DNA from: Acidovorax defluvii
Lineage (GTDB): Bacteria; Pseudomonadota; Gammaproteobacteria; Burkholderiales; Burkholderiaceae_C
Length of the DNA: 64,000 bases
Direction of reading: 5' to 3'
NCBI GenBank assembly: GCA_003268905.1
Contig: QLTU01000002.1
Span: forward strand, 101,313-165,312
Of this stretch, positions 16,345 through 63,404 are shown piece by piece. The notes under the pieces were generated by a model. The model saw only the letters and a list, made by a program, of their open reading frames with translations. It had not been told where the DNA came from and did not search any database. Position numbers and translations under genes: made by a program. Each line of letters begins with the position of its first letter. The first letter of the stretch is position 1.

Positions 16345-17013
16345 TCAGGGATTCCAGTGCAGAAAATTGCGGTACAGGGCCAATCCGTGCTCCGCGCTTT
16401 TTTCGGGGTGAAACTGCGTGGCAAAAATATTATCGCGCGCAATGGCGGCTGCGAACCAGCCGCCGTAATCCGCTTGGCCCGCGCAATGGGCAGGATTTTG
16501 CGGCACCGCATAGAAACTGTGCACAAAGTAAAAGTAACTGTGGTCGGGCACACCCGCCCACACGGGGTGGACCTTGCCCGCATGGGGCACCTGTCGCACC
16601 TGGTTCCAGCCCATCTGGGGCACCTTGAAACGGCTGCCGTCGGGCTGGGTTTTGCCCGCCAGGTCGAACTTGAGCACATCGCCCGGGATGAGGCCCAAGC
16701 CCGGTGTGTCGCCCTCGGCGCTGTGGTCCAGCAGCATCTGCATGCCTACGCACACGCCAAACATCGGTTTGGTGGCGGCAGCTTCGAGCACCGACTCCTG
16801 CAGGCCCGACTCGCGCAATTCGCGCATGCAGTCGGGCATGGCGCCCTGGCCCGGCAGCACAATGCGCTGCGCAGCGCGCACGTCTTCCGGACGAGAAGTG
16901 ACCACCACGGTCCAGCCCGTGTCGTGGGCGGCGGCCTGCACAGCCTGCGACACCGAGCGCAGGTTGCCCATGCCGTAATCGACCACCGCAACGGTTTTTG
17001 CTTCTATATTCAT
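16345..17013 (-). CDS. hisH: Imidazole glycerol phosphate synthase subunit HisH
   Basis: Glutamine amidotransferase subunit that passes ammonia to HisF to make imidazole glycerol phosphate and AICAR. 222 residues. Class I GATase motifs: [25 protein letters not shown] with the nucleophile Cys, and TQFHPEKS with the catalytic His. The first codons (MNIEAK) lie inside a copy of the dispersed palindrome, so the N-terminal five residues come from the repeat. The partner hisF is not present in the window. Confidence 0.97.
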
Positions 17014-17057
17014 AGCTGCTAGCGCTTATCCATTAAGGGCTAGAGCCCGATTTGACC
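17000..17057 (+). repeat. Dispersed two-hairpin palindrome, copy 1
   Basis: First of nine copies. Written in the + orientation the element has a small hairpin (GCTAT..ATAGC-like, here TCTAT..ATAGC), then a larger palindrome (AGCGCTTAT..ATAAGCGCT-like; right arm here AAGGGCT) and a tail AGAGCCCGATTTGACC. It lies between hisB and hisH and covers the hisH start codon. Confidence 0.85.
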
Positions 17058-17065
17058 TAAAAAAT

Positions 17066-22230: not shown

Positions 22231-22252
22231 CGCAAAAGTCAGAAATATGTAT

Positions 22253-22309
22253 GAAAAGTGCTTCTAGCGCTTATGAATAAAGCGCTAACAGCTATTAATT
22301 TAAGAGCAC
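22253..22309 (-). repeat. Dispersed two-hairpin palindrome, copy 2
   Basis: Inverse orientation: TTCTAGCGCTTAT, then ATAAAGCGCT and a small hairpin over AGCTATTAATTTAAGAGC. It occupies the 90-base gap between the BolA-family gene and murA, about 20 bases upstream of the murA start. Confidence 0.85.
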
Positions 22310-28336: not shown

Positions 28337-28679
28337 GGTGCAGAACAAAAAACGCCGTCAGTGGCCGAGACCCTGACAGCAGGCCAAGCATCATAGGGGA
28401 AACCCCTTGGTGTTGCTCAGCCCATCGTTAAAACCTGTGGTGTGCAAGTGACGCTTGTCCATGCTTGACGGTTATAAAACTTCGGTAGCAAGCGATGCAC
28501 CTTGGTCGCCATTGCGGAATGGGTTGCAGGGGCGGGTTTCGCAGGGGCTTCGTTGGGGCTGGGAGTGGTTTGAATGTGGCGCCCCCGGGACTCTTACCTC
28601 CCCAAAGGCTCCAAAACTATCAAAACAATAGCTACTAGCGCTTTACTGGCAAGCGCTAGAGCCCGATTTCACCAAAAAT
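28337..28679. other. Gene-free spacer between mlaF and the amino-acid ABC ATPase gene
   Basis: 343 bases with no plausible gene. Its right end (28617-28673) is a copy of the dispersed palindrome. The rest should hold the mlaF promoter, but I found no -35/-10 pair with normal spacing on the - strand. Confidence 0.7.
28617..28673 (+). repeat. Dispersed two-hairpin palindrome, copy 3
   Basis: Small hairpin CTATCAAAACAATAG, then CTAGCGCTTTA and CAAGCGCTAG around a 4-base centre, then the AGAGCCCGATTTCACC tail shared with copy 1. It lies just downstream of the amino-acid ABC ATPase gene and could act as its 3' mRNA hairpin. Confidence 0.88.
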
Positions 28680-31059: not shown

Positions 31060-31227
31060 GGTGTAGCGATTTTCAAAAAGAACAGACAGGGGGGCAAAGC
31101 CGGACGGGGCATGCACCACCCACTGGTGCAGTGTTCGAAGCCCCGGGAAAACCCTGCATTGTCCCATTGATGTGGATTGCCGGCATCTGGGTCGCCATGC
31201 GCCGCCCCGGGAATAAGCAGCAAAATA

Positions 31228-31277
31228 CGGCTTCAGCGCACACTGGATAAGCGCATATAGCTATTTAATCAATAGCA
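31228..31277 (-). repeat. Dispersed two-hairpin palindrome, copy 4 (diverged)
   Basis: Left arm degraded (TTCAGCGCACACTGG), right arm ATAAGCGC, small hairpin GCTATTTAATCAATAGC intact. Lies between the gltD terminator and the binding-protein gene. Confidence 0.75.
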
Positions 31278-32861: not shown

Positions 32862-37595
<4,734 letters not shown>

Positions 37596-37664
37596 GGCGC
37601 ACTCCTATATTTTTCGCAGGGACTGCAAGAATAGTGCAACGCAACATATTGAGGCAAGCACAAC

Positions 37665-37688
37665 AATTGGGGTCAGAGTCCAATTATT
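37665..37688 (+). repeat. Left inverted motif of the RAYT unit
   Basis: AATTGGGGTCAGAGTCCAAT followed by TATT. It is an imperfect palindrome and the inverse of the motif at 38511. A related AATTGGGGACACATCAATT lies at 37713-37731. Confidence 0.8.
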
Positions 37689-37724
37689 CACACCTAATTG
37701 TTGAATAGGTTTAATTGGGGACAC

Positions 37725-37782
37725 ATCAATTTGAATAGCTGTTACCGCTTATCCATAAAGCGCTATAAGCCAATCTGACTCA
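37725..37782 (+). repeat. Dispersed two-hairpin palindrome, copy 5
   Basis: ATCAATTTGAATAGC small hairpin, ACCGCTTAT..ATAAAGCGCT main palindrome, then TAAGCCAATCTGACTCAA. It lies inside the RAYT unit, directly after (and sharing the stop codon of) the transposase gene. Confidence 0.85.
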
Positions 37783-38475
37783 ATTTTTTGGCGTGATTGC
37801 TGGACGCCCAGCCCTGGCCTTGGTGACGCGGCGTGGGGATTTTTTTTGCAACTCCGCTACAAATTCTGTGTCGCCCAACGCCCAGCCGCTCAATGCCGCG
37901 TCGGTCAAAGCCGCCTGGTCGCCACAGCCAATGCCTGCCTGCACCAGCCCTGCATAGGCGGCCTCGCGTGCAAACGGCGTGTTGCCCAGTGCCCAATACA
38001 GCGCATGCGGGGTCACGAGCTTGTCGATGCGCTGGCCCAGGTAATGGGCGTGGCTGGACCACTGCCAGGCCCCCGGTTGCGCCACCATGCCGGCCCGCAC
38101 CGGGTTCAGATCGATATACACCATGCAGGCGAGCAAATAGCGCTCCGTCTCGATCAGCGTGGAGCGGTAGCGCCCCTCCCACAGCGTGCCACTGCGGGCG
38201 TGGCGCTGGTTGAAATAGCGCACATAACTGCGCCCCACCGCCTGCATCATCAAAGGCAACGCCTCGGCCGTGGCCGGCGTGGCGAGCAGGTGAAAGTGGT
38301 TGTCCATCAGCACATAGGCATGGACCGCAACCGCAAACTTATGTGCGTTTTCGGCCAAAAGCGCCATCATGGTGGCGAAATCCTGGGTGTCCGCAAAGAT
38401 CATCTGGCGGTTGTTGCCGCGCTGAATGATGTGGTGCGGGTAGCCGGGAAGCGTGAGACGGGGCAGGCGGGCCAT
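37780..38475 (-). CDS. REP-associated tyrosine transposase (TnpA_REP, Y1/HUH type)
   Basis: 231 residues. Y1 transposase of the IS200/RAYT class, single-strand endonuclease acting on hairpin DNA. HUH motif in MDNHFHLL (His60, His62); GYPHHIIQRGNNRQMIF N-terminal block; candidate catalytic Tyr in GRSYVRYFNQRHARSGTLWEGRY; YIDLNPVRAGMV and WQWSSHAHYLG are typical RAYT blocks. The frame is intact. The C-terminal 60 residues are less conserved and end in a basic tail (RRVTKARAGRPA). RAYTs are usually single-copy and domesticated, and are thought to spread REP sequences. Confidence 0.92.
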   Translation of the reverse strand: MARLPRLTLPGYPHHIIQRGNNRQMIFADTQDFATMMALLAENAHKFAVAVHAYVLMDNHFHLLATPATAEALPLMMQAVGRSYVRYFNQRHARSGTLWEGRYRSTLIETERYLLACMVYIDLNPVRAGMVAQPGAWQWSSHAHYLGQRIDKLVTPHALYWALGNTPFAREAAYAGLVQAGIGCGDQAALTDAALSGWALGDTEFVAELQKKSPRRVTKARAGRPAITPKN

Positions 38476-38510
38476 GGCGATGTACTGAACAAGGAAACAC
38501 GGGCAATTTT

Positions 38511-38534
38511 AATTGGGCTCTGACCCCAATTATT
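38511..38534 (-). repeat. Right inverted motif of the RAYT unit
   Basis: AATTGGGCTCTGACCCCAAT followed by TATT; its complement matches the left motif at 37665 with few changes. It lies 36 bases upstream of the transposase start. Confidence 0.8.
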
Positions 38535-38576
38535 GAGTTGGCCACGTATTGCCCCTGAGGAGTGTTTGCACGGACC

Positions 38577-39503
38577 CTATTCCTGCGGCGACACGGCGGC
38601 GTCTGCCGACAGCCCGAAACGCGCTCCCAAAGCCTGCTCGAGCCCGAACTCGCGCAGGATGGCGCGCAGCCGCTCCTGGGCGCTGCGCTTTCTCTGACCG
38701 GTGTAGCGGGCGATGATCAGCTCGTTTTTCATGCTGTGCTCCCAACCCACCAGCTCGGTCACTGTGACCTGGTAACCGCTGGCCTCCAGGTGCAGGCACC
38801 GCAACACGTTCGTTACCTGGCTGCCCACCTCGCGGGTGTGCAGCGGGTGGCGCCACAGTTCGGCCAGGGGCGTGCGCGCCAGTTGCAGAGCCTTGCCCTG
38901 GCGCAGGCAGGCAGCCACTTCGGCCTGGCAGCAGGGCACGATGACCATCGCGCGTGCCTGTTTTTGCAGGCCGAAGGCAATGGCATCGTCGGTGGCGGTG
39001 TCGCAGGCATGCAGCGCGGTCACCACATCAATGCGCTCGGGCAGCTCGGCCGCATCGGTGGATTCAGCCACCGACAGGTTCAAGAACGACATACGCCCAA
39101 AGCCGAGTTGCTTGGCCAGTGCGCGCGATTTTGCGACCAGTTCGGCGCGCGTTTCAATGCCATAGATATGACCGCGTCCGAGCGCCTTGAAATACAGGTC
39201 GTACAGGATAAAGCCCAGGTAGGACTTGCCCGCGCCATGGTCGGCCAGCGTGGGGCTGTGCCCGTTTGCCGACATTTCTTGCAGCAAGGGTTCGATGAAA
39301 TTGAACAGGTGGTAGACCTGCTTGAGCTTGCGGCGTGAATCCTGGTTCAGCCGCCCTTCGCGCGTGAGGATATGCAGCTCTTTCAATAACTCAACGGACT
39401 GCCCCGGGCGCAGCTCGGACAACTCTGCGCTGGCTGCCGGCGGGTTTTTGGCCGACACTTTGGTCGCCGCCTTGTCAGCCGTCTTGTGGTGCGCGGCTTT
39501 CAT
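38577..39503 (-). CDS. Class I SAM-dependent methyltransferase (Methyltransf_32-like)
   Basis: 308 residues. A variable Lys/Ala-rich N-terminus (1-40) leads to the methyltransferase core: LADHGAGKSYLGFILYDLYF replaces the usual glycine loop, IYGIETRAELVAKSRALAKQLGF is the second strand/acidic loop, IDVVTALHACDTATDDAI is the ALHACD motif, and MVIVPCCQAEVA follows. This pattern is seen in the GSTCD/Methyltransf_32 family. Substrate unknown (RNA is a guess from the family). Start overlaps the DUF1415 stop by four bases. Confidence 0.85.
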   Translation of the reverse strand: MKAAHHKTADKAATKVSAKNPPAASAELSELRPGQSVELLKELHILTREGRLNQDSRRKLKQVYHLFNFIEPLLQEMSANGHSPTLADHGAGKSYLGFILYDLYFKALGRGHIYGIETRAELVAKSRALAKQLGFGRMSFLNLSVAESTDAAELPERIDVVTALHACDTATDDAIAFGLQKQARAMVIVPCCQAEVAACLRQGKALQLARTPLAELWRHPLHTREVGSQVTNVLRCLHLEASGYQVTVTELVGWEHSMKNELIIARYTGQRKRSAQERLRAILREFGLEQALGARFGLSADAAVSPQE

Positions 39504-40306: not shown

Positions 40307-41479
40307 TCAACCCAGCAGACGCAGGCCGGTCAATCGCTCGTGTTCGCGCCCCGCGAAACGGTCGGTCATTCCGGCGATGTAATCCGCCACCGTCCGGGCG
40401 CGTGCCGGGGGCTCGCCTTCCAGTGCCTGGCGGGCAAATCGGGGCTTCATTTCGCCGGGTTGGGCCACATACGCAGCAAACAGCTCGGTTACCACGCGCT
40501 GGGCGCGCCCGGTGGTCTCCACCACCTGCGGGTGGCGGTAGAGGTCCTTGAAAAGAAACCGCTTGAGCTCCGATGACTGGGCCCGCATGGGGGCACTGAA
40601 GCCCACCAGCGTTGCGGCCATGCGCACGTCGTCCACGCTGCGGGGCGCGGCACTGGCCAACGCGGCGCTGGTGGCCTCGATCACGTCATAGACCTGCGCA
40701 CTGAGCATGCGCCGGATGGCTTCATACAACAGGCGCCGCTCCATCGCAGTGCCCCCCAGATGAGGATGCTCGGCCTGCGCCACACGGCGATAGTGGTCGA
40801 ACAGCGGAACATCGGTCAGTTGCGCCAGCGTGATCAGGCCCGAGCGCACGCCGTCATCAATGTCATGCGCGTTGTAGGCGATTTCGTCCGCCAGATTGCA
40901 CAGCTGCGCCTCCAGGCTGGGCTGCTCCTTGCGCAAAAACCGCCCCCCTACACCGCCGGGTTCATTCAACTCCAGCCGCTGCGCGTTTGCCTGCGAGCAA
41001 TGTTTAAGCACGCCCTCCCGCGTTTCGAAGGTCAGGTTGATGCCGTCGTAATCGGGGTAGCGCTCTTCAAGGTGGTCCACCACCCGCAGGCTCTGCAGGT
41101 TGTGCTCGAACCCGCCATGGGCATGCATGCACCCGTTCAGCGCATCCTGCCCGGCGTGCCCGAAAGGGGTGTGGCCGAGGTCATGGGCCAGTGAAATGGC
41201 CTCCACCAGGTCTTCGTTGATGCGCAACGACCGGGCAATCGAACGCCCCAGTTGCGCCACCTCCAGCGAATGCGTGAGCCGCGTGCGAAACAGATCTCCC
41301 TCGTGGTTCAGAAAAACCTGGGTCTTGTAAACCAGCCGACGAAACGCCGACGAGTGCACGATGCGGTCACGGTCACGCTGGTAGTCGTTGCGCGTGGGCG
41401 CTGCAGGCTCAGGGTAGCGGCGCCCGCGCGAAAGCGCCGGGTCGCAGGCATAGCACGCCAGAGAAGAGTTTTGGGTCAA
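40307..41479 (-). CDS. dgt: dGTP triphosphohydrolase-like protein
   Basis: HD-superfamily enzyme releasing tripolyphosphate from dNTPs. 390 residues, the shorter dGTPase-like type common in betaproteobacteria. Motifs: FRRLVYKTQVF, TRLTHSLEVAQLGR (first HD-domain His), AISLAHDLGHTPFGHAG (HD pair) and LADEIAYNAHDIDDG. The start is the TTG at 41479 (MTQNSSLACY); no ATG fits, and the TTG lies at the edge of a palindrome copy. It follows aroB, the usual order aroK-aroB-dgt. Confidence 0.94.
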   Translation of the reverse strand: MTQNSSLACYACDPALSRGRRYPEPAAPTRNDYQRDRDRIVHSSAFRRLVYKTQVFLNHEGDLFRTRLTHSLEVAQLGRSIARSLRINEDLVEAISLAHDLGHTPFGHAGQDALNGCMHAHGGFEHNLQSLRVVDHLEERYPDYDGINLTFETREGVLKHCSQANAQRLELNEPGGVGGRFLRKEQPSLEAQLCNLADEIAYNAHDIDDGVRSGLITLAQLTDVPLFDHYRRVAQAEHPHLGGTAMERRLLYEAIRRMLSAQVYDVIEATSAALASAAPRSVDDVRMAATLVGFSAPMRAQSSELKRFLFKDLYRHPQVVETTGRAQRVVTELFAAYVAQPGEMKPRFARQALEGEPPARARTVADYIAGMTDRFAGREHERLTGLRLLG

Positions 41480-41532
41480 ATTGGCCTCTAGCGCTTTATC
41501 AGCAAGCGCTTAAAGCTATCATATTAATAGCA
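41476..41532 (-). repeat. Dispersed two-hairpin palindrome, copy 6
   Basis: TCAAATTGGCCTCTAGCGCT then CAAGCGCTTAAAGCT and the small hairpin GCTATCATATTAATAGC. One of the best-preserved copies. It fills most of the aroB-dgt gap and includes the dgt start codon. Confidence 0.9.
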
Positions 41533-55298: not shown

Positions 55299-55308
55299 TG
55301 GTTATTGA

Positions 55309-55363
55309 CAAAATCGGCTCCAGCCCTTTCGCATAAAGCGCTAACAGCTACTATTTTAGTAGC
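55309..55363 (-). repeat. Dispersed two-hairpin palindrome, copy 7
   Basis: CGGCTCCAGCCCTTTCG, ATAAAGCGCTAAC and small hairpin GCTACTATTTTAGTAGC, whose stem has compensatory changes relative to GCTAT/ATAGC in the other copies. Located between two convergent genes. Confidence 0.85.
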
Positions 55364-55365
55364 AT

Positions 55366-61534: not shown

Positions 61535-62287
61535 ATGACGACACCCTCTTTCGCGCCAGTTGCTGGCTCCCTTTCGCCCGCACCAGACGCCAAGATCGCC
61601 ATGGGCTGGATGCACACCGCCAAGTTCCTCACCACGGCTGCGCAACTGCACCATCTGCCGCCCATCCACGTGCCCGAGATAGCCTTTGTGGGCCGTTCCA
61701 ACGCGGGTAAATCCACTTGCATCAACACGCTTACCCAGCAAAAGCAGCTGGCGTTCGCCTCTAAAAGGCCCGGGCGCACGCAGCACATCAACCTTTTCTC
61801 TCTGGGCAAACACGGCGTGACCGATGCCGTGCTCGCTGATCTGCCCGGCTACGGCTACGCGAAGGTGTCGCGATCCGACAAGGTGCGCTGGCAGCAAGTG
61901 ATGGTCAATTACCTGGTCAGCCGCCCCGGGCTCACCGGCATCGTCTTGTTGTGCGACCCACGGCTCGGGTTGACCGAGCTGGACGAGGCTCTGCTCGAAG
62001 TGCTGCGCCCACGGGTCGAAGAAGGCCTGAAATTCCTCATCCTGCTGACCAAGGCCGACAAGCTCACACGCTCTGAGCAGGCCAAGATCCTGTCGATTAC
62101 GCGACTGAACGCGGCCGGCGGAGATGTGATGATGTTCTCGGCCCTCAAGAAGCAAGGGGTGGACGAGGTGGCGCAATTGCTGTGGCAATGGGCACACCCG
62201 GTGTTGCCTGCAACCGAAGCGGCGCAAGCGCCCCCCGAGTCGGCCCCCGAAGCACCGGAAAATTCTGGGAAATCTGAACCAAACTAG
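61535..62287 (+). CDS. engB: Ribosome biogenesis GTPase EngB (YihA/YsxC)
   Basis: TRAFAC GTPase needed for 50S subunit assembly. 250 residues, with a longer than usual C-terminus. G1 GRSNAGKST, G2 region RPGRTQHINLF, G3 DLPGYGYAKV, G4 TKADK, G5 SALKK. The last 30 residues are Pro/Ala/Glu-rich and probably disordered. A palindrome copy begins at its stop codon. Confidence 0.96.
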   Translation: MTTPSFAPVAGSLSPAPDAKIAMGWMHTAKFLTTAAQLHHLPPIHVPEIAFVGRSNAGKSTCINTLTQQKQLAFASKRPGRTQHINLFSLGKHGVTDAVLADLPGYGYAKVSRSDKVRWQQVMVNYLVSRPGLTGIVLLCDPRLGLTELDEALLEVLRPRVEEGLKFLILLTKADKLTRSEQAKILSITRLNAAGGDVMMFSALKKQGVDEVAQLLWQWAHPVLPATEAAQAPPESAPEAPENSGKSEPN

Positions 62288-62335
62288 GCTCTGGCGCTTA
62301 TGCATCAAGCGGCAGCAGCTATTGATTACATAGCA
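62286..62335 (-). repeat. Dispersed two-hairpin palindrome, copy 8
   Basis: GGCTCTGGCGCTTATGC, then CAAGCGGCAGC and small hairpin GCTATTGATTACATAGC. It fills the 50-base gap between engB and the hydrolase gene and ends three bases before the hydrolase ATG. Confidence 0.85.
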
Positions 62336-62337
62336 CC

Positions 62338-63243
62338 ATGATTTTTTCAGAAGCCATCGACCTGCCGCACGGCATCACCCTGCAGTGCCGCGTGAGCGGC
62401 GTGGCGGGGCGGCCTACCCTGTTTTTTTTGCACGGCTTTCCGGAAGGCGCCTTCATCTGGGACGCTTTGCTGCTGCATTTTTCGCGCCCCGAAAATGGCG
62501 GCTACCGTTGCGTGGCGCCATTTTTGCGCGGCTTCGGGGCATCGAGCAGTCCGGCGGAAGTGGCGGCTTATCGCGCCAAACACCTCGTGCAGGATCTCGT
62601 TGCGCTGATTGCCGCTGAATCCCCCGGCGGCGTACTCGAATGCCTGGTGGCGCACGACTGGGGCGGTGCGGTGGCCTGGAATCTGGCCAACCAGCAGCCC
62701 GGTCTGATGAAGCGGCTGGCCATCTTCAATTCACCCCACCCGGGGGCTTTTTTGCGCGAGCTGCAGCACAACCCGGCGCAGCAGGCCAGCAGCCAGTACA
62801 TGCACTTTTTGTGCAGGCCCGATGCCGAGGCACTGCTGGCCGAAAACGACTTTCGTCGCCTGTTTGCTTTTTTCAACAACCCGGACGGCAGCGCCCCCGC
62901 GTGGCTGACCGACACCGTGCGCGCACAATACCGCGCCCTGTGGCAGCAGGGTCTGACCGGCGCCTGCAACTACTACCGCGCCAGCCCGCTACGCCCGCCC
63001 CGCGAAGGCGACCCGGCCGCGCAGGCAGTCACCCTGCCCGACACGATGCTGACCGTGGATGTACCCACACTGGTGCTGTGGGGTATCGACGACCCTGCCC
63101 TGCTGCCCGGCCTGCTGGACGGCCTGCCGGGCTGGGTGCCGCAGCTGCAATTGCAGCGCGTGCAGGGCGCATCGCACTGGATCGTGCATGAACACCCGGA
63201 GCGCGTGGCCGTGGAATTGCAGCGCTTTTTGCAATCAAACTGA
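62338..63243 (+). CDS. Alpha/beta hydrolase, epoxide-hydrolase-like
   Basis: 301 residues. Oxyanion motif FFLHGFPEG, nucleophile elbow VAHDWGGAVAW with Asp as nucleophile (epoxide hydrolase/haloalkane dehalogenase type rather than Ser), acid in LWGIDDPALLPG, and catalytic His in GASHWIVHEHPE. A cap domain lies at about 135-225. Substrate unknown. No room for its own ribosome site outside the palindrome copy that precedes it. Confidence 0.88.
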   Translation: MIFSEAIDLPHGITLQCRVSGVAGRPTLFFLHGFPEGAFIWDALLLHFSRPENGGYRCVAPFLRGFGASSSPAEVAAYRAKHLVQDLVALIAAESPGGVLECLVAHDWGGAVAWNLANQQPGLMKRLAIFNSPHPGAFLRELQHNPAQQASSQYMHFLCRPDAEALLAENDFRRLFAFFNNPDGSAPAWLTDTVRAQYRALWQQGLTGACNYYRASPLRPPREGDPAAQAVTLPDTMLTVDVPTLVLWGIDDPALLPGLLDGLPGWVPQLQLQRVQGASHWIVHEHPERVAVELQRFLQSN

Positions 63244-63290
63244 TAGCTGCTTGCGCTTTATCTATAAGCGCCAGAGGCCATTTTGACTCA
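63232..63290 (+). repeat. Dispersed two-hairpin palindrome, copy 9
   Basis: Small hairpin ATCAAACTGAT, GCGCTTTATCTATAAGCGC as the main palindrome, then CAGAGGCCATTTTGACTCA, the same tail as copies 1 and 5. It covers the hydrolase stop codon, so the last codons come from repeat sequence. The remaining 114 bases to the next gene show nothing. Confidence 0.9.
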
Positions 63291-63404
63291 TATTTTGCAG
63301 CACAGGCTGCGCCACACTGCTGCCACCATGGAGCTGTCTTGGCCGGGTTGCCGTCGCCCCCTGCGATAGAAGGCGCGCCGCACGCCATGAAAGCCCCGGG
63401 GAAA

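Follow-up and report, generated by a model that had tools for sequence, protein, structure and literature searches.

As portrayed in passages of PMC8049555, RAYTs are single-copy, vertically inherited domesticated transposases, with REPIN replication proceeding at very low rates, and PMC8266576 states, in the relevant passage, that evidence for a mobility of tnpA-REP is lacking. These RAYT/TnpA-REP genes and REPtrons (groups 2 and 3 in the sections of PMC8266576 that treat them; PMC2817692, an excerpt of which names Thauera as a betaproteobacterial case) are the described systems closest to the locus studied here, which has in common with them the Y1/HUH fold, single copy, vertical inheritance, and a gene bordered by inverted hairpins with few further hairpin copies. 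As far as those sections go, the present locus differs in that its ends carry GGGGTCAG instead of the GTAG tag, with few further copies, that the gene is docked at gltB, that its NCBIfam score lies just under the cut-off, and that relatives from the same clade are multi-copy. Insertion sequences of the IS200/IS605 type also have a Y1 transposase and hairpins at both ends; in contrast to these, the present RAYT is one copy at one conserved locus, with one gene in the unit, and mobility in the sense of more than one position is not seen.

Two kinds of small intergenic repeat have been described from the same bacteria. According to one section of PMC5217627, Acidovorax ebreus has 114 mostly intergenic copies of GCTTAT(N)5AAGCG (44 convergent versus 4 divergent), and Polaromonas naphthalenivorans has 125 mostly intergenic copies of ATAGCT(N)22CAAAAG; a mechanism, element boundaries or a link to a transposase are not given there. 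The BRE repeat of Bordetella and Comamonadaceae, as characterized in part of PMC3110155, is 75-91 bp long with an average GC content of 69%, and is arranged in tandem in places.

Here, we analyze a stretch of 64,000 nucleotides from Acidovorax defluvii (the window), in which a preliminary description had recognized an intact RAYT unit with the fifth of nine dispersed palindromes inside it at its 3' end, and had proposed that the transposase could spread one or both repeat families. Our comparative results make it probable that the RAYT is a domesticated gene fixed upstream of gltB, and that the palindromes are a separate, old and static family whose copy 5 is an inherited passenger. The unit and its neighbors are laid out as follows.

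32862-37595, minus strand: gltB, encoding the large subunit of glutamate synthase, the fixed neighbor on the 3' side (ORF and synteny).
37655-37660, minus strand: candidate gltB -35 box TGCTTG, adjoining the 3' end of the unit (sequence and consensus of 111 relatives; putative promoter role).
37665-37685, plus strand: AATTGGGGTCAGAGTCCAATT hairpin that forms the end of the RAYT unit on its 3' side, with 4 nt between it and the candidate -35 box.
37713-37731, plus strand: AATTGGGGACACATCAATT, an inner end motif that reads GATGTGTCCCC on the strand of the RAYT, with conserved [TC]GTCCC (sequence).
37780-38475, minus strand: RAYT-type Y1/HUH transposase gene, 231 aa, with HUH motif H60-F-H62 and candidate catalytic Tyr Y120.
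38511-38531, minus strand: the AATTGGGGTCAGAGTCCAATT hairpin again, in inverted orientation, forming the end of the RAYT unit on its 5' side.
38577-39503, minus strand: methyltransferase-domain gene, the usual 5' neighbor (within 1.5 kb in 108/132 relatives).

The 231-residue protein matches Pfam Y1_Tnp (8.4e-10) and scores 78.4 bits against the NCBIfam model REP_Tyr_transpos (NF047646), which has a cut-off of 80 and matches 28/28 scanned relatives at E ≤ 1e-3. The HUH motif H60-x-H62 is invariant in all 112 distinct RAYT proteins compared, and Y120, presumably the catalytic tyrosine judging from the motif YIDLNPVRA, is kept in 109 of the 112. Five AlphaFold models were obtained, the best with a pLDDT of 80 and the rest ranging from 78 to 48. 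The top structural match in the PDB is 4er8, a RAYT with bound REP hairpin (E 1.6e-7; TM 0.76 by target, 0.55 by query), followed by the IS608 and ISDra2 transposases; a sequence search of the PDB gave no hits, and PADLOC provided no lead. In its Y1/HUH domain with the HUH motif as well as in its fold, the protein is thus of the RAYT type, and would be expected to bind and cleave DNA as a Y1/HUH-type single-strand endonuclease. Apart from overlapping antisense frames it is encoded by the sole gene of the unit, and with dN/dS values of 0.10-0.14 against five close relatives this gene is under purifying selection.

Inverted AATTGGGGTCAGAG ends border the gene on both sides. They form part of a 34-nt inverted repeat (37653-37686 and 38510-38543, 85% complementary), and within it lie AATTGGGGTCAGA hairpins, inverted to each other, at 37665-37685 and 38511-38531. 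A variant third motif, GGGGACA, is found at 37717, and copy 5 of the palindrome spans from this motif into the end of the RAYT gene. The anatomy originally outlined is therefore confirmed, both for the Y1/HUH gene between inverted motifs (ORF, Pfam Y1_Tnp and 34-nt inverted repeat) and for copy 5, which at 37722-37785 lies inside the unit at its 3' end and overlaps the stop codon. Perfect ATTGGGGTCAGA occurs at two sites in the 4.11-Mb genome, both of them the ends of the unit, and the same two ends are the only perfect GGGGTCAGANNCCANTT sites in the window, where ten sites are found with up to 3 mismatches versus 5.0 expected. Among relatives, the 18-mer of the 3' end is found with at most 2 mismatches in 76/109 (control strand 0/109) and that of the 5' end in 32/109 (control strand 3/109), and the 3' hairpin is far better conserved than the 5' hairpin. 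TCTGACCC is present with at most 1 mismatch at 136/136 loci (control strand, 5), and [TC]GTCCC is kept in 133/136 (control strand, 7/136).

The end motif is a small repeat in its own right. The present genome contains ten GGGGTCAGANNCC sites, compared to 2 for the pattern read backwards, and these comprise the 2 RAYT ends, 6 that lie outside coding-like frames and have the matching TCC(C)AAT arm, and 2 that appear unrelated. Instead of the dispersed GTAG-tagged REPs described as flanking RAYTs of groups 2 and 3, the groups covered by this comparison, the gene is flanked by GGGGTCAG ends with six further non-coding copies (GGGGTCAG[AC/AT]TCC) elsewhere in the genome. Beyond the RAYT ends, non-coding GGGGTCAGACTCC/GGGGTCAGATTCC hairpins were seen at L336-L339, L342 and L343, on the genome's own contigs C4, C17 and C20; two of them follow each other in tandem at a distance of 26 nt, and two, with 1.76 kb between them, neighbor small ORFs that we take to resemble PIN-domain toxins.

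The genomic setting of the unit is largely constant. It is the sole RAYT match in the present genome, and matches are found in 142/150 genomes of the family and 44/47 of the genus. The gltB gene lies directly 3' of the RAYT and co-oriented with it at 136/138 loci, at 129-263 nt from the stop codon; on the other side follow the methyltransferase-domain gene, a DUF1415 gene and a dGTPase. At two loci (L139 and L168) the RAYT is separated from gltB on its 3' side by about 1.6 kb, with something in between, the usual spacing being about 180 nt. Low-identity RAYT matches include paralogs, and gltB linkage refers to the named loci; where second matches are listed in the family and genus, they are mostly paralogs of at most 37% identity. 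A set of 22 more distant loci contains 12 with gltB 183-417 nt on the 3' side, namely 11 of the 21 that come from other families (those 11 being in f3, f8 and f32) and one from the same family, and the remaining ten (in genomes of f8, f15, f23 and f24) are not beside gltB. Two genomes, G140 and G043, have a gltB region without the RAYT, and the end motifs are missing there as well. The nearest named records of the locus belong to Acidovorax (among the best 80 of 333 loci). One contig filed under a cyanobacterial MAG (L161, Oscillatoria princeps) also carries a Comamonadaceae-type RAYT-gltB locus, which is probably contamination.

A once-mobile RAYT has thus long been fixed just upstream of gltB in a large bacterial group. 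The gene is single-copy and vertically inherited, and the locus fits the description of RAYTs given in the passages of PMC8049555. The docking at gltB is the new part: a literature search for RAYT together with glutamate synthase gave no report on the subject, by title or start of abstract, among the matches listed. Of the "intact RAYT unit" initially put forward, the anatomy with its own inverted ends stands, and the notion of a jumping element gives way to a gene fixed beside gltB at the loci counted above. In the mechanism that we propose, the locus would be passed on vertically as a single copy docked upstream of gltB; the docking probably predates the split of the compared families, and the substrates of the protein would be the GGGGTCAG-type hairpins at the unit ends and their few further copies. 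A role for the unit as a control module of gltB, in which the 3' hairpin, the better conserved of the two and only 4 nt away from the candidate -35 box, would serve as an operator bound by the RAYT protein, is an unlikely extension. If it is true, a former transposase would tune nitrogen assimilation.

The palindromes themselves were delineated with a covariance model, which places the nine copies of the window as follows.

16999-17062, plus strand: dispersed palindrome copy.
22245-22308, minus strand: dispersed palindrome copy.
28615-28678, plus strand: dispersed palindrome copy.
31214-31277, minus strand: dispersed palindrome copy.
37722-37785, plus strand: copy 5, overlapping the RAYT stop codon and without the outer TGCTAT arm (60.6 bits).
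41469-41532, minus strand: dispersed palindrome copy, its site, judged by position and orientation, filled in several genera of the family.
55301-55364, minus strand: dispersed palindrome copy.
62272-62335, minus strand: dispersed palindrome copy.
63230-63293, plus strand: dispersed palindrome copy.

Each is 64 nt long with 33-47% GC; the palindrome as a family has the stems GCTAT/ATAGC and CTAGCGCTT/AAGCGCTAG followed by TTTGACTCAAA. The model scores all nine at 59.9-76.7 bits, which holds by construction because it was built from them; the independent result is that the present genome contains at least 150 copies, all 150 scored candidates having passed. The counts are lower bounds, with 150 candidates scored in the present genome and 112, 35 and 26 per genome in the genus, the family and other families, respectively. 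Using this model (R1), which was made from the present genome and misses diverged versions elsewhere, we found the palindrome in 45/47 genomes of the genus and 53/150 of the family, and as a single hit in 1/195 genomes from other families of the order. Most other copies have the outer TGCTAT arm that copy 5 lacks. As single-stranded DNA, copy 5 folds no better than its shuffles (z 0.27), and three other copies reach z scores of -1.5 to -2.7. Rfam returned no families at gathering scores, and neither a GTAG nor a CGTC tag is present beside the stem in the consensus of 30 copies.

Like REPs and REPINs, the palindrome is high in copy number and intergenic. By gene calls from a home-made GC-frame heuristic, which is crude, its midpoints lie outside called ORFs in 9/9 cases in the window and 31/41 in 370 kb of a second genome (G152), where 11 copies are between convergent genes, 16 between tandem and 4 between divergent ones, and 10 within called ORFs. 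This mostly intergenic placement with few divergent cases is also that reported in the section of PMC5217627 cited above. The core sequence of those motifs is that of the palindrome, and GCTTAT(N)5AAGCG is present in palindrome copies, for example, L029; the palindrome has thus been published before, as an intergenic motif without explanation. By description, it is set apart from BRE, which in the part of PMC3110155 concerned is likewise a small, usually intergenic repeat of overlapping genera: 64 nt and about 40% GC (33-47% in the window) compared to 75-91 bp and 69%. The searched text of PMC6006769 and PMC3733652 contained no match for the Burkholderiales names looked for, and a literature search by DNA strings returned nothing relevant by title among the matches listed.

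Whether the palindromes move was judged from a comparison of G152 with G173 over 370 kb at about 90% identity, using 400-nt flanks and 85 of 95 rows (2 antisense duplicates and 8 rows below 30 bits were dropped). The nine window palindromes are found at orthologous sites and in the same orientation 9/9 times in G173 and 8/9 times in G152, where the ninth, copy 5, is aligned without a model hit. Scorable sites number 33/41 in G152 and 36/44 in G173, with 32 filled by a model hit in each, and the other scorable sites have an aligned, decayed-looking copy, including one flagged as shorter. No clean empty site was found among the scorable sites in the 370 kb of the two genomes. Sixteen sites were unscored with 400-nt flanks; with longer flanks, eight of these form four facing pairs in the same orientation and are therefore filled in both genomes, one G173 site is missing from G152 along with about 0.94 kb, and one is replaced by about 1.3 kb. 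With no call for six, the sixteen thus provide no absence confined to the element. The idea that the palindromes are recent insertions was rejected, since orthologous sites are filled and none is cleanly empty.

Sequence divergence conveys a similar picture. Across 38 sites, identity is 0.81 in the palindromes versus 0.90 in their flanks. Nine of 64 columns are unchanged in 24 ortholog pairs, compared to an expectation of 1.2 and a maximum of 6 over 5000 shuffles; this test starts from model-chosen sites in one genome, which favors conserved cores. Something may therefore keep the core of the palindrome. Compensatory changes in the stems were not found: 63 of 336 pair cells are changed, and pairing survives in 19 of these (in one case with both sides changed) and is lost in 44. 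Individual copies are old and in decay, with a core that, judging from the unchanged columns, is perhaps kept.

The presence of one such copy at the end of a transposase gene makes a connection tempting, and a REPtron with a switched substrate, in which the RAYT slowly replicates the palindromes and copy 5 is the cognate REP beside the gene, is the chief alternative, even if we find it quite improbable. Consistent with such a connection, when the region 3' of the RAYT is scanned with a matrix derived from 30 dispersed palindrome copies, the highest-scoring position falls on one strand and one offset at 60/109 loci, and still at 50/99 loci after removal of covariance-model hits. Copy 5 is therefore an ancestral feature of the unit in the family of Acidovorax, as a link between RAYT and palindrome would also predict. 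It is also the case that RAYTs elsewhere are single-copy and vertical and replicate REPINs very slowly, according to the passages of PMC8049555. Further support comes from a GCTA[TC] box at the RAYT end, assessed in the 44 genus genomes with RAYT and in 84 of 149 other family genomes with flanks to hand, leaving out 1/44 and 17/84 as unanchorable. With kinship ignored, the box is present in 29/38 palindrome-rich versus 0/5 palindrome-poor genomes of the genus and in 17/31 versus 9/36 of the other family genomes, and its rank correlation with palindrome copy number is weak in the genus (rho 0.17, p 0.27) and moderate in the family (rho 0.41, p 0.0006). Such an association would also be expected if all copies of a genome decay together, and was set aside; nine of the 38 palindrome-rich genus genomes were scored as boxless, although G168 among them is probably mis-anchored.

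Since the RAYT is found almost throughout the family (142/150 genomes), co-occurrence was not accepted as evidence that proves a link. A RAYT match is present in 51/53 palindrome-bearing family genomes and 42/45 of the genus, but also in 91/97 family genomes without a palindrome hit. The five palindrome-bearing genomes without a match, which are the candidates for the refuting case named in the preliminary description (rich in the palindrome, no RAYT), have no assembled gltB region: a gltB hit is likewise missing from G040, G179, G183 and G189, and the contig of G131 breaks off 182 nt upstream of gltB, both 3' motifs being preserved. Against the switched-substrate reading stands, in addition to the lack of clean gains among the scorable sites, that the RAYT is equally selected where the palindromes are nearly gone. 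Four palindrome-poor genomes (G162, G165, G169 and G192, with 2-5 hits) group together as a single clade, surrounded by rich genomes, in a tree built from 58 loci, and their RAYT has a dN/dS of 0.10-0.15 compared to 0.07-0.13 in two rich sets. G150 and G156 are also palindrome-poor; in all, six genus genomes have 0-5 hits and most others about 100 or more. Chance neighborhood is moreover not unusual, with a palindrome within 20 nt of the 3' end in 8/53 genes of the window and 18/325 of G152, as counted with the same heuristic gene calls. Finally, none of the 8 anchorable RAYT-gltB loci from other families has its best palindrome match at that strand and offset (3 of the 11 could not be anchored), even though [TC]GTCCC is seen in 8 and the GACCC motif in 10 of the 11 by eye. 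As to a spread of the palindrome by a cognate RAYT, as in REPs and REPINs, the comparative data thus speak against it and the box association for it.

The proposal that the RAYT spreads the nine palindromes accordingly loses its footing: they are without the RAYT end motif, none of their scorable sites is cleanly empty, the palindrome-poor clade keeps a selected RAYT, most family genomes without a palindrome hit have a RAYT match all the same, and the anchorable RAYT-gltB loci of other families show no palindrome at the 3' end. We favor the passenger reading, in which the palindrome would be a separate, old and now static intergenic repeat family, one copy of which would have reached the gap that separates the RAYT from gltB in an ancestor of the family and been inherited ever since, like the other old copies. 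It is the simplest account, and copy 5 is most likely such an inherited passenger. The RAYT presumably has no action on the palindrome, but slow or past action may have occurred.

A derivation in the opposite direction, with the palindromes as non-autonomous derivatives of the 3' stem-loop of the RAYT unit, would explain the common core at a fixed offset, yet it is very improbable. No such stem is present at the 8 anchorable other-family loci despite their kept end motifs, on which grounds the idea was rejected, and the outer TGCTAT arm is found in most dispersed copies and not in those at RAYT ends.

Relatives of the RAYT that share its ends point to a different repeat as the clade's own. In G262, from another family, four copies of the RAYT clade are 98.9-100% identical. 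Taking L315 as the reference, L314 matches over 789 bp and L317 over 787 bp, the identity of both ending at AAATGGGGTCAG and CTGACCCCATTT, and it stops at these motifs in three flank contexts. Some flanks have been duplicated too, since L316 has another 0.8 kb downstream in common with L315 and L314 shares a displaced 272-nt piece; beside the copies there are additional tandem copies of the end hairpin and a 111-nt left-end fragment. Likewise, the two copies in G255 are 98.95% identical over 858 bp ending at GGGGTCG and CCGACCCC. These boundaries in both genomes identify the GGGGTCAG hairpin as the true end and small repeat of the RAYT clade. From this sequence pattern, the clade would move the GGGGTCAG end and not the palindromes. 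The other half of the original proposal, that the protein acts on its own end family, accordingly remains plausible, with mobile-looking relatives sharing the ends and six further copies in the genome. If counted as RAYTs, these relatives in G262 and G255 look like exceptions to the immobility stated in the passage of PMC8266576. That the unit in the window is itself a presently mobile insertion sequence is hardly credible: gene and ends are intact and G262 and G255 have several copies of related units, but it is one copy in the present genome, occupies the same locus in nearly all relatives, and second matches, where listed, are mostly distant paralogs.

A RAYT long settled at one promoter offers a concrete place to test what domesticated RAYTs do for their hosts. 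The relatives that share its ends and occur in several copies illustrate the condition from which the gltB RAYT may have come. The locus also corrects a tempting inference, as a repeat adjoining a transposase gene need not be the product of that transposase. The copies L314-L317 (G262) and L319-L320 (G255), with their inverted GGGGTC ends, thus represent relatives of a domesticated gene that are apparently mobile. At L300-L303 and L311 we also observed second paralogs of RAYT type with 32-35% identity, and these have an end motif of their own, GGGGTCAGGTCTTG.
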